Positions 3,494-62,107 of a stretch of 64,000 nucleotides of DNA are shown in pieces. Source of the DNA: a virus. Every line of letters starts with the position of its first letter. The first letter of the stretch is position 1. Location: positions 1-64,000 of the IMG/VR virus record IMGVR_UViG_3300045740_000163, one strand, 5' to 3'. Below the pieces are notes generated by a model that saw nothing but the letters and a program-made list of their open reading frames with translations, searched no databases and was not told where the DNA came from. Made by a program: the position numbers and the translations under genes.

Positions 3494-3994
3494 ATGGACC
3501 GAAACCCGCAGGCCAAGCATCCGTTATACCAGACCTGGAAAGATATGAGAGATCGCTGCCTTAACCCTAATAACACAGCTTACCAAAAGTGGTATGGCGC
3601 AAAAGGTATCACTGTATGTGAAAGATGGCTTAAGAGAAATCCTATTGGTACAAACAAAGGATGGGCTCCTGGATTTCAAGCTTTTGTTGAGGATATGGGA
3701 CCAAAACCAACTCCAAAACATCAACTCGATCGTATAGACCCAGCAAAGAGTTACGAGCCCTCAAATTGTCGTTGGGTTACAACTTCAGAACAGGCTTCAA
3801 ACAAAAAACCATATAAAAGACCTTCTGTTCAAGGAGAGAAGAATAAAAACGTTAAAATTACTGAAGAAAAAGTAAAACAACTTAGAAAAGATAGAAAACA
3901 AGGATATACGTATGACCAACTCAAAAGTAAATACGGTATTTCTAAATCTACAGTGGCTCAAATAGTAAAAAGAAAAACTTGGCAACATATATAA
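3494..3994 (+). CDS. Free-standing HNH-type homing endonuclease
   Basis: 166 residues. The N-terminal two thirds follow the phage endonuclease pattern W-x-x-M-x-x-R-C-x-N-P ... Y-G-x-x-G-I-x-V-C ... LDRID ... Y-x-P-x-N-C-R-W-V-T ... N (residues 15-105). The C-terminal third is Lys-rich and holds a helix-turn-helix (KLKSKYGISKSTVAQIVK) likely to set target recognition. The gene is on the opposite strand to its neighbours, is more AT-rich than they are, and lies between two minus-strand terminators. All of this is typical of a mobile free-standing endonuclease. Target site unknown. Confidence 0.8.
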   Translation: MDRNPQAKHPLYQTWKDMRDRCLNPNNTAYQKWYGAKGITVCERWLKRNPIGTNKGWAPGFQAFVEDMGPKPTPKHQLDRIDPAKSYEPSNCRWVTTSEQASNKKPYKRPSVQGEKNKNVKITEEKVKQLRKDRKQGYTYDQLKSKYGISKSTVAQIVKRKTWQHI

Positions 3995-30943: not shown

Positions 30944-31282
30944 ATGTCAAACGCCATGATGTCCATCAAAATCTACAAACACTGCGACACCTGGGCCTTC
31001 ACGGATTTATCCAAAGGTCTCAGAGACGAGCCTTTCGTCTGTGGAATCCCGGAAATTATCAATTACTTCATCGAAAACTTTAGCGATCCTTCTAAAGAAA
31101 CGCACAGAATTATATTTTCAGCACGAAATTTCCCGCATTCACATGGAAAACTCGTAAAAACCGAGATGGAGTCCGGAGGAGCATGGTATTCCTACGAAAA
31201 CTCTATGAAAGGCTGGCTTTGCCCCGCAACATTGGAGTTTTTTGAAGAACATCCAGACGAACTGTACGTAAGGTTTGAGTAG
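30944..31282 (+). CDS. DUF6717-like protein
   Basis: 112 residues. I recognise the pattern KIYKHCDTWAFTD ... LRDEPFVCGIPEIIN ... RIIFSARNFP ... GGAWYSYE ... GWLCPATLEFFEEHPDELYV from a small family in bacteria and phages (DUF6717). It is monocistronic, with its own promoter and a strong terminator just after the stop. Role unknown; strong independent expression suggests an early host-directed protein. Confidence 0.65.
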   Translation: MSNAMMSIKIYKHCDTWAFTDLSKGLRDEPFVCGIPEIINYFIENFSDPSKETHRIIFSARNFPHSHGKLVKTEMESGGAWYSYENSMKGWLCPATLEFFEEHPDELYVRFE

Positions 31283-31311
31283 AAAAAGGTAAAACAGAAA
31301 ATTTTTCACCA

Positions 31312-31337
31312 ATCGCTCCCACGCGGGGCGATTTTTT
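31312..31337 (+). terminator. Intrinsic terminator, plus strand
   Basis: ATCGCTCC (31312-31319) and GGGGCGAT (31325-31332) form an 8-bp stem with a 5-nt loop, followed by TTTTTT. It closes the 30944-31282 unit and also shields the tRNA-Met. Confidence 0.9.
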
Positions 31338-31346
31338 GTATCTGTA

Positions 31347-31419
31347 TGGGGGTCGCGAGGATCGAACTCGCCTGAAATCGATTATGAGTCGACCGCTTTC
31401 ACCAGATAGCTAGACCCCC
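31347..31419 (-). tRNA. tRNA-Met (anticodon CAT)
   Basis: 73 nt with acceptor GGGGGTC/GACCCCC, anticodon stem GTCGA/TCGAT around CTCATAA, a GCGAG/CTCGC T-stem and a TTCGATC loop. CAT could also be a lysidine-modified Ile tRNA. A TATAGT hexamer lies just upstream on the minus strand (31431-31436 region). It borders the structured noncoding region. Confidence 0.9.
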
Positions 31420-31433
31420 GTGCCTGCCACTAT

Positions 31434-31462
31434 ACTGACAATGGACCTTTTGGGGTCAGTTT
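31434..31462. repeat. Left copy of a flanking hairpin repeat
   Basis: ACTGAC (31434-31439) pairs with GTCAGT (31455-31460), and TTTGGGGTCAGTTT (31449-31462) recurs exactly at 32559-32572 in a hairpin of the same design. Confidence 0.6.
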
Positions 31463-31569
31463 ACTCCGCCGAAAACCATAGGTATCTCGCCCGCGTCGTC
31501 GCGCGAGCTCTATATATAAAAAAAAGGCCGAATTGCGGGCAGATTGCGCCCACTATGTAACACAAACCT

Positions 31570-31690
31570 CGCGCGTGCGCGTATGCGCGTGCGTGTGTGC
31601 GTGTATGCGCGTGCGTGTACGCGTGTGCATGATGCGCGCGTGGGCGGGGGTGCGCGTTTTTCTACGCGCGTGTGCGCATGGCGTGCGCGC
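31570..31690. repeat. Alternating purine-pyrimidine tract (Z-DNA potential)
   Basis: Bases 31570-31631 alternate pyrimidine and purine without a break for 62 bp, mostly as CG, TG and CA steps; further shorter alternating blocks continue to 31690. CG/TG alternation is the classical Z-forming sequence. It lies between tRNA-Met and the structured RNA region, at the turn from late to early transcription. Possible roles are a replication-origin element, a supercoil sink, or a recombination or packaging site. Confidence 0.8.
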
Positions 31691-31699
31691 TTCCTCTCC

Positions 31700-32640
31700 C
31701 TGCTGACTGAGCTTACCGAGCTCACCTAGTGTGCCAATCTGCAATCCGGTTGCAAGGGGTTGACCTAGTGCGCCGTGGTGTGATCTCATTAAGGGGTCGA
31801 AGGGCGAGAGCCCGATCGGCAGAACCTGGACAACCTGCAGCCCACGCGTCGCCACCCGGTACGATCCCGGCGGTTGATCAGCCAAGCCCTGCGAACCTAC
31901 GCGTTCCCGCTTGTGCCGATCGCCAAACCGTCACTCCATCGTTCCGACAGGCTCCGCACCATGCTGTAGGATTCCAGCAACGGGCCGAGAGGCTCGACGA
32001 CATAGCAGCTCAGCCATCGCTCAGCTGGCCGCAGACGGAACGTCGCCATAAGTAGGCTCCCCAGGGAGCCGAGACGGCGAGACGACGGACTGTAGGCTAG
32101 GTGTTCCGACAGGCTGCGGACTGATCCCCCTGAGGCTAGTAGCCATAGGTGCGGCCGCCGAACCATTCAAGGCCCGCATCAGCACTAGAATCTCCCGCCC
32201 ACCCGGCGATGGCCAGCGCGTCACGCTAAGGGAAGCTCGGAGCTAGTGTCTCGCCCGGAAGGCCCTTAGTCCGCTGCTGTAGGTTTTTAACTTCCTACAG
32301 TTGTGCTGAGTTACAATCGCCATACTCTGACGACAGGCAAGCCGGGTGGGACCCGTGAGAAGTCCAGGGATCGAGCGTGGTGAGAAGTAACGCAATACCT
32401 AAACACTTTTTATCCGCAGGGATGTTGTGTCCGAGTACCTGCATCAAACACAGGTACGCTGGCACAAGCCGCAGGAAGTTATCTTCTACGGTCATCATCC
32501 CGGCGGGGCACAATTTAATAGCTTTTGTGCGCATTATGTGCGCCATAACTGACTTTAATTTGGGGTCAGTTTCCCGGATTCACTCTTTAGTGGGGCCTGG
32601 TATTACCTACCGGGCTCTACTTAGGGGTGTGTTTGTTTGT
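31700..32640 (+). ncRNA. Candidate giant structured noncoding RNA (GOLLD/ROOL-like)
   Basis: About 0.9 kb without a convincing ORF and more GC-rich than its flanks. Plus-strand stems include GAGCT/AGCTC (31709-31723), TGCAA/TTGCA (31740-31754), GGGC-GAGA-GCCC (31802-31813), GGGCC-GAGA-GGCTC (31982-31995), GGCTCC/GGAGCC (32055-32070) and CTGTAGG/CCTACAG (32277-32300). Further stems are CGGGT/ACCCG (32343-32355), GTACCTG/CAGGTAC (32434-32456), GCGCA/TGCGC (32529-32543) and ACTGAC/GTCAGT (32548-32570). A long-range helix GATCGGC/GCCGATC joins 31814-31820 with 31915-31921. Two GNRA (GAGA) loops favour the plus strand. Large size, ornate folding, phage location and a neighbouring tRNA are hallmarks of GOLLD and ROOL RNAs. 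Boundaries are uncertain. Confidence 0.6.
32548..32572. repeat. Right copy of the flanking hairpin repeat
   Basis: ACTGAC (32548-32553) with GTCAGT (32565-32570), sharing the 14-mer at 32559-32572 with the left copy 1.1 kb away. The two copies enclose the Z-DNA tract and most of the RNA candidate. Confidence 0.6.
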
Positions 32641-32691
32641 ATCCGTGATCACGTTTGATCATGGTGCAAAGTTTCGTTTCTGCTTTTATGT

Positions 32692-32717
32692 CTGACGCTC
32701 TCCCTGTGCGCTATAGT
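32692..32717 (+). promoter_or_regulatory. Early promoter with shared downstream element
   Basis: TATAGT (32712-32717) is followed by TGAGGGCCTCT (32724-32734), the same pair of elements as at 36537-36555. A CTGACG hexamer at 32692-32697 is a poor -35 with a short 14-nt spacer. It would drive the early gene chain from 32775. Confidence 0.5.
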
Positions 32718-32774
32718 GCACACTGAGGGCCTCTACCCTCACCTTTTACTACAGTTTCACAGGTGTATTTAAAC

Positions 32775-33080
32775 ATGACTGAACTGACAATCAAGACCAA
32801 CAATCAGCCACCCCCGCTGTTCAATCCCTGCGAACTTTCGCAGTCTCAGCGTGCCAAACTGCGCCGCCAATTTGATTGGATGAGCGACGATGAGTTTGAC
32901 CATAATTGTTCATTCTTTCTCTATCGCGGTTGGTATTACAACCTCTCTGACTTCCTGACTAACACTAACCCTGACGGTATGTTTAAGGGTTGGCACGGTA
33001 TCGCTAGCGATTCCTATTTCACAGGAACGCTAGTCAAACTGTGCGGCAACGATGTTATCGTCGGCCGTTATTCTTCCTGA
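32775..33080 (+). CDS. Early small protein, unknown
   Basis: 101 residues from ATG 32775: helical N-terminal half with LSQSQRAKLRRQFDWMSDDE and a beta-rich aromatic C-terminal half (FKGWHGIASDSYFTG, VIVGRYSS). It is the first gene of the long plus-strand chain, just downstream of the structured RNA. Similar W-H-G-x-x-S-D-S patterns occur in cyanophage hypothetical proteins, as I recall. Function unknown. Confidence 0.7.
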   Translation: MTELTIKTNNQPPPLFNPCELSQSQRAKLRRQFDWMSDDEFDHNCSFFLYRGWYYNLSDFLTNTNPDGMFKGWHGIASDSYFTGTLVKLCGNDVIVGRYSS

Positions 33081-61480: not shown

Positions 61481-62068
61481 TTAGGGTAAGCTAGAAGCGA
61501 AAGAGTTTAATTCAACAATATTAGGCTCATACGCTTCTTCTGGCCACAAATCAATAACGGCTTTGTTACGAGCAGCCGCAGCTTCTTGTATGGTTTCGTA
61601 ATATCCCAAATTTTTAGGCGTACCTTCAATCGTTATCTGCGCTATCCATTTTGACCGCTTACTATTCCAGTGAACTCCTTTCACGCCAGAAGTATTATTT
61701 TTACGCAGTCCTTGATTTTTCTGTGTAAGGCCCACGGTGTCTTTTCGTAAATTGGATACTGTATTGTTTAAACTATTCCTGTCTATGTGGTCGATCTGAT
61801 GAGGGTAAGGATCTTCCCCATAAGCTAAAAGATAAATAACTCTAGAAGCTAGAAATCTTTTTTTGTCGATTACGACACCCCAAACACACCTACCGTCAGA
61901 ACGTCTGGATATAGAGCCAGTCCACTCATCTTGCTTTGCATTGTTCGCTCGGGTGATTTTATTTTTTAACCCACTCTGCGTATTCAATTTATTAATATCC
62001 GGAGATTCTATATAAAATAACTTGTTTACATAATCAACATCAAAAGGAAGCGGTTTAATAACAGCCAT
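61481..62068 (-). CDS. HNH endonuclease with AP2 domain
   Basis: 195 residues from ATG 62068. HNH core PHQIDHIDRNSLNNTVSNLR (about 96-115) followed by an AP2 DNA-binding domain (SGVKGVHWNSKRSKWIAQIT, then LGYYETIQEAAAARNKAV). This pair is the standard free-standing mobile endonuclease. It is next to thyX, a common insertion neighbourhood for homing endonucleases. Confidence 0.9.
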   Translation of the reverse strand: MAVIKPLPFDVDYVNKLFYIESPDINKLNTQSGLKNKITRANNAKQDEWTGSISRRSDGRCVWGVVIDKKRFLASRVIYLLAYGEDPYPHQIDHIDRNSLNNTVSNLRKDTVGLTQKNQGLRKNNTSGVKGVHWNSKRSKWIAQITIEGTPKNLGYYETIQEAAAARNKAVIDLWPEEAYEPNIVELNSFASSLP

Positions 62069-62107
62069 GCTTGTTATCACACACCTAGCGACTATAACAG
62101 CTTTTCT

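Follow-up and report, generated by a model that had tools for sequence, protein, structure and literature searches.

The window analysed here is a stretch of 64,000 nucleotides (positions 1 to 64,000) of the IMG/VR virus record IMGVR_UViG_3300045740_000163. The record is 86,390 bp long and has Synechococcus phage S-EIV1 as a relative; in the terminase it shares 54% identity with S-EIV1 and less than 60% with every other phage record. In IMG/VR, 391 stretches code for relatives. Minus-strand late genes (head, portal and terminase) and plus-strand early genes (DNA polymerase, primase and ATPase) diverge from a junction (Table 1) across which the GC content rises from about 45% to 62%. A small plus-strand gene without a PHROG match (30944-31282) lies between the late genes and a tRNA-Met, and it is closed by a classical intrinsic terminator whose hairpin is at 31311-31333. 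The direct repeat TTTGGGGTCAGTTT occurs at 31449-31462 and 32559-32572, 1,110 bp apart and bracketing the region, with an inverted ACTGAC near each copy. Two ORFs elsewhere in the window, 3494-3994 (plus strand) and 61481-62080 (minus strand), have the look of HNH-type homing endonucleases when judged by eye.

Table 1. Features of the late/early junction in the window (positions are those of the window; relatives carry L numbers).
Feature	Position	Strand	Remarks
Divergent late (minus)/early (plus) junction	31283-32774		
tRNA-Met (CAT)	31347..31419	-	Divergent neighbour; 0.28 kb from the RNA region
Conserved block TCTCGCC...TATATATAAAAAAAAGGCCGAATTGCGGGCAG	31482..31545	+	Upstream of the RNA; in nearly all homologues
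Alternating GC/GT/AC purine-pyrimidine tract, 125 bp	31566..31690	.	Seen in the sequence
Proposed RNA transcription unit	31690..32642	+	About 0.95 kb; 5' end approximate; extent from conserved domains, covariation and terminator-like 3' hairpin
TTGACC element	31760..31790	+	Upstream of first boxA-like motif
GNRA hairpin GGGC-GAGA-GCCC	31802..31813	+	Directly 5' of boxA-like motif
boxA-like motif AGAACCUGGACAAC	31821..31834	+	
GNRA hairpin GGGCC-GAGA-GGCUC	31982..31996	+	Compensatory changes in homologues
Hairpin GGCUCC-CCAG-GGAGCC	32055..32070	+	Alignment read by eye
3' domain	32116..32272	+	Closed multi-branched structure, 48 pairs, 7 helices; best-supported domain of the window's RNA
Hairpin CUGUAGG-(10)-CCUACAG	32277..32300	+	Also in L088
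3' hairpin H3 (UGUGUCCGAGUACCUG...CAGGUACGCUGGCACA)	32426..32467	+	Conserved over 25 family loci
Long stable hairpin, 22-nt arms, loop UUACC, then UGUUUGUUUGUAU	32581..32642	+	Candidate 3' end/terminator
Tandem GATCA boxes, 10-11 bp spacing	32646..32663	.	Between the RNA and the early-gene leader, outside the RNA
Leader hairpin TGAGGG...CCCTCA of first early gene	32724..32741	+	
First early gene ORF	from 32775	+	

Relatives of this locus were located with the flanking early protein, with the adjoining structural protein and with four DNA patterns derived from conserved islands; a scan of IMG/VR with the pattern TAAAAAAAAGN{4,8}ATTGCRG, which describes the upstream block, recovered the family. 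At the corresponding position, thirty relatives have a structured noncoding region with the same layout; all relatives carrying the RNA are metagenomic. The order begins with the block TCTCGCC...TATATAAAAAAAAGG..ATTGCGGG, often followed by an alternating GC/GT tract, and continues through the structured region, usually with one to three copies of ACCUNGAMAA, to H3 and further stable hairpins. GATCA boxes, two or three in nearly all relatives, come next, and the first early gene follows them behind its TCTCTCCC...GAGGG leader hairpin. The nearest contigs can be aligned with the window blockwise, at 70-90% across about 1.1 kb; the other relatives share the common frame and have different cores. 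No homologue was found among 50,697 phage records searched by nucleotide sequence.

The flanks of the region carry several candidate control elements. The conserved upstream block is possibly a promoter region of either unit, or a DNA site, and the GC/GT/AC tract is potentially a Z-DNA former. The tract is shared with several relatives; in L222, L218, L232, L306 and L294 a promoter-like TTGAC-N17/18-TANNNN, just 5' of the RNA, stands in its place. A consensus scan of the RNA region in the window found no sigma-70 promoter and no good -10 box to accompany the TTGACC element. In 17 of 27 loci, TTGAC(C) lies 57-72 nucleotides 5' of the first boxA-like motif; it is possibly the -35 box of an internal promoter, or else an RNA element. 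The sequence TGCTGTAGGATTC, considered as a -10 box because of its promoter context in phage L147, was dropped: it occurs within RNA domains in the family and has no regular -35. Downstream of the RNA, the GATCA boxes look like a phage operator. The sequence TGCTGTAGGATTCCAG is also present in phages L147 (971-986), where it sits in the promoter context TTGACC-N18-TAGGAT, and L153 (11390-11405), where GCACCTGGACAACC follows about 90 nucleotides on; L153 is perhaps a distant family member.

From the letters of the window alone, the original prediction had proposed that about 0.9 kb at the late/early boundary holds no credible gene and forms a large structured noncoding RNA, without deciding between GOLLD, ROOL and a new class. 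Comparison among relatives supports the view that approximately 31690-32642 codes for a large folded RNA and not for a protein. ORFs of 83-110 amino acids are present on both strands, and stops, frame shifts or gaps break them in relatives, leaving no conserved ORF. None of the three outcomes that would have refuted the prediction was observed: no ORF is conserved, homologues show covariation, and folding on the plus strand surpasses that of shuffled sequence in most homologues. Stem counts alone carry little weight at 62% GC. Against dinucleotide shuffles, the plus strand of the window folds with a z-score of -3.3 (none of 20 shuffles as good) and the minus strand with -0.3; a single 600-nucleotide piece of the window gives only -1.5. 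The plus strands of 13 homologous 600-nucleotide pieces all lie below their shuffles (z from -0.7 to -5.9), whereas those of coding controls range from -2.4 to +0.3, so that the plus strand beats shuffled sequence in the window and in most homologues.

The decisive evidence is covariation, which is present in several domains, the 3' domain of the window among them. In an alignment of seven sequences of this domain (A1), 97.5% of cells are paired and 20 of the 48 pairs show two-sided compensatory changes. None of 500 shuffles was as good on four of five measures, and three of 500 were on the fifth; when the partners were slid by one to three columns, only 33-49% of cells paired. The region thus has compensatory changes beyond both shuffled and slid controls together with the lack of a conserved ORF, the combination that we took to mark a structured RNA. 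A covariance model built on the domain (R1) scores the window's copy at 155.9 bits and finds its seven own members, and no others, among 60 loci. Because R1 matched nothing in 26 further records, the 3' domain is taken as lineage-specific; cultured S-EIV1, whose junction is only 0.5 kb, also gave no R1 match. G-U cells outnumber A-C cells by 31 to 5 in A1 and by 15 to 3, 18 to 2 and 6 to 0 in alignments A2-A4, and the RNA is therefore read from the plus strand.

Individual hairpins add to this picture. The two GAGA loops closed by GC stems that had been predicted are both there, the second ending at 31996 rather than 31995. The stem of the second is maintained through G-C, C-G and G-U exchanges in six sequences; at the place of the first, relatives also have GNRA hairpins, with different stems. 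The hairpin at 32055 reads GGCCCC/GGGGCC in L088, a change from U-A to C-G, and the stem of the last hairpin has a compensatory change in L101. That stem ends at 32629 and its U-rich tail runs to 32642, in good agreement with the predicted end points of 31700 and 32640. A simple terminator scan missed the hairpin and detected no classical terminator there. Structure between 31700 and 32115 in the window is only partly supported. A long-range 7-bp helix had been proposed in this part; its arms, GATCGGC (31814-31820) and GCCGATC (31915-31921), are indeed an inverted match, but by eye only L085 among the relatives compared conserves it. Proximity to a tRNA holds for part of the lineage only: tRNA-Met stays beside the RNA in close relatives and is at least 3 kb off in L185 and L218.

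A second lineage has a core of its own, in which covariation is equally strong. In a 12-sequence alignment of this core (A2), 95.5% of cells are paired, 11 of 22 pairs have two-sided changes and none of 500 shuffles was as good. Its closing helix P1 joins ACCUNG, the first boxA-like copy, as 5' strand to CNAGGU, and the variable position appears as A-U, U-A, C-G and G-U. A further helix, P2, was misaligned by MAFFT; with arms read by hand, 93 of 99 cells pair, compared with 68.8 +/- 4.1 for shuffled partners (0 of 20,000 as good). P2 is significant in this comparison across sequences only, and not when searched sequence by sequence. Consensus-fold z-scores are -7.3, -7.3 and -3.4 for the exchangeable cassettes C1, C3 and C5 and -6.1 for hairpin H3, in which 6 of 14 pairs have two-sided changes. 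H3 (GTCCAG...GTACCTG...CAGGTACGCTGGAC) is also found alone at gene ends or between genes in L276, L284, L283 and L285, with the rest of the region not seen; in bacterial genomes the hairpin pattern gave one match (Zeimonas), at about chance level.

Close phages exchange whole domains at this one fixed locus. L158 and L227 are 96% identical over 358 nucleotides, 91% over 338 nucleotides and 99% over the early leader, yet between the first two of these blocks they carry unrelated cores, of 388 nucleotides in L158 and 496 nucleotides in L227, the latter holding the 3' domain of the window type. Conversely, L111 and L218 have a 172-nucleotide cassette in common at 92%, and just 39 further nucleotides align. 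What the comparisons show is a swap of domains within a fixed frame, made up of the 5' block, the 3' hairpins and the early leader downstream.

BoxA is an antitermination element of the rrn and nut type, allowing Nus-factor-dependent read-through of terminators. The boxA of cyanobacterial rrn operons is GAACCTTGAAAA (PMC8461337). The motif in the window agrees with it in 10 of 12 letters; the motifs of L111, L158, L219 and L294 are identical to it, and that of the near relative L085 is mutated. In the family the motif, ACCUNGAMAA, is preceded by a hairpin, often GNRA-looped. The covarying partner in P1 shows that the first copy has a structural role in the second lineage, and a reading of ACCUNGACAA as purely boxA was dropped on account of that CNAGGU partner, which makes the first copy structural in one lineage. 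The window has an imperfect version of the motif, L085 a mutated one, and in the second lineage the first copy is part of a helix, so the motif may serve a structural role.

Searches against known RNA families, also suggested as a check with the original prediction, place this RNA in none of the four classes named there. At the gathering threshold Rfam 15 reported tRNAs only, and relaxed thresholds added only chance matches, mostly to the GT tract (microRNA models) and to the tRNA. When the GOLLD covariance model (RF02032) was run on eight records (the window and seven relatives), nothing matched at E<=10, and GOLLD was also missing from a relaxed cmscan of the window and relatives. ROOL (RF03087) matched neither the window nor any S-EIV1-like locus searched, and for 31283-32790 of the window neither OLE nor HEARO appeared among the matches with E up to 10. 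The same tool scored ROOL at 346 bits in L293 and 331 bits in L307, both recovered solely through the motif ACCUYGAMAACAGAAUAG. These ROOL loci (L293:7505-8093 and L307:5029-5617) have the boxA-like GAACCTTGAAAACAGAATAG at their 5' end; in L293 a short hairpin and a promoter-like TTGACA...TATAAT come before it. Searching by nucleotide sequence with ROOL yielded no more ROOL phages, so the link between boxA and ROOL comes from two related loci. The same motif also follows promoter-like sequences in phage contigs L296 (near 1337), L298 (2439-3746) and L299 (234), with noncoding-looking sequence next; L298 and L299 also have hammerhead ribozymes of type II, at distances of 1.2 and 6.7 kb downstream.

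The explanation that we consider probable is that the locus encodes an independent, early-oriented plus-strand noncoding RNA of about 0.95 kb, belonging to a new family in S-EIV1-like freshwater cyanophages and similar in kind to GOLLD and ROOL but a member of neither. We infer that it is transcribed as its own unit and is released as a free molecule. It would start near or inside the GC/GT tract and end at the last hairpin and its U tail, and the GATCA operator region that follows would belong to the early genes. By way of the recurrent boxA-like motif and its hairpin, the host NusB/S10 complex would probably keep polymerase moving through the long untranslated RNA, as in rRNA operons; a boxA-type element may in this way help transcription to reach the end. 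The product would then act in trans as a free structured RNA. Because it is giant, multi-domain and phage-encoded, as GOLLD and ROOL are, the most economical reading makes it most likely a scaffold, cage or decoy, formed by the RNA alone or with host proteins. The exchange of cassettes points to the interchangeable domains as the part in contact with a variable host target. Against this explanation, the window has neither a consensus promoter nor a classical terminator for the RNA, its copy of the boxA-like motif is imperfect, the 3' domain of the window type is present in seven loci only, and the RNA is co-oriented with the early genes and ends about 130 nucleotides before their first ORF, so that it could be their leader.

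The last point is the starting place of the strongest alternative, a cis-acting antitermination leader of the early operon, in which polymerase would be modified during elongation by boxA and GNRA-hairpin modules, in the manner of lambda nut or HK022 put RNAs, and the early genes would be read through. Its position on the same strand immediately 5' of the first early gene, the location of the boxA-like motif beside GNRA hairpins in up to three repeats, and the rrn boxA letters of several relatives all fit such a leader. We nevertheless regard it as unlikely, given that the RNA is ten times the size of nut or put, that in the second lineage the first boxA copy forms part of a helix and that cassette swaps leave the downstream genes unchanged. 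The strong U-tailed hairpin, together with the operator-like GATCA boxes and a separate leader ahead of the ORF, favors a free RNA over an mRNA leader.

Less probable still, as an account of its own, is an immunity RNA under diversifying selection: a decoy or antisense RNA for counter-defence or superinfection exclusion whose cassettes switch its target. Unrelated cores in one slot of the otherwise near-identical L158 and L227, and one cassette in the distant L111 and L218, fit such an RNA, but mosaicism is common in phages. This reading is compatible with a free noncoding RNA and does not exclude it. The divergent junction, Z-DNA-like tract, AT-rich block, palindromic hairpins and GATCA operators might instead describe a DNA element (a replication origin, a packaging or recombination site or a promoter cluster) whose palindromes imitate RNA structure; we find this very improbable, and for the core it is largely refuted by covarying long-range multi-branched pairs, by GNRA loops and by an excess of G-U over A-C that only a plus-strand RNA explains. 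A divergent member of GOLLD or ROOL, which size, phage origin, the tRNA-Met neighbor and the GOLLD-like variable and constant parts might bring to mind, is the most improbable of all, as Infernal, run on the window and relatives with E up to 5-10, reports neither family while scoring true ROOL at more than 300 bits elsewhere.

To our knowledge very few giant structured RNAs of phages have been described, GOLLD and ROOL among them without a known function. The free noncoding RNA favored here would add a family without an Rfam match, placed centrally in the transcription programme of a freshwater cyanophage group. Its many domain-swapped variants are natural experiments, in which the constant parts should be structural and the swapped parts should carry specificity. 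That two ROOL loci have the boxA-like motif as well gives a testable idea of the way in which phages transcribe very long untranslated RNAs. A broader proposal, which we put forward tentatively, is that this RNA stands with GOLLD and ROOL as a third class of giant phage RNA, a modular machine, possibly an RNA particle, that meets variable host factors by exchanging cassettes in a constant frame and is transcribed in a boxA-driven, rRNA-like manner.

GOLLD is induced during lysis and assembles into a 14-mer RNA cage, and ROOL likewise forms a homo-oligomeric RNA cage. The function of both cages is unknown, and GOLLD is often near tRNAs, one studied example lying downstream of a tRNA-Met (PMC12286853). 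Like GOLLD, the RNA described here is giant, multi-domain, phage-encoded and without an ORF, and it combines a constant with a variable part; unlike GOLLD, its constant portions are the flanks and 3' hairpins around a swapped core, and it occupies a divergent early/late junction and not a tRNA array. With ROOL it shares the character of a large structured phage RNA and, in two ROOL loci, GAACCUUGAAAACAGAAUAG at the 5' end, although its domains differ and the ROOL model does not match. It resembles OLE and HEARO as large ornate bacterial RNAs, and no gene for the proteins associated with them (OapA, IscB) was recognized beside the locus. Compared with rrn, nut and put, it differs in having one to three boxA-like copies within an ornate RNA of 1 kb, the first of them paired in one lineage, and in having no rRNA downstream. 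What it has in common with the rrn boxB-boxA leaders, lambda nut and HK022 put is the succession of a GNRA-type hairpin and a boxA-like sequence in the window's RNA, and cyanobacterial 16S-23S spacers have the same order of hairpin and then boxA (PMC8461337).
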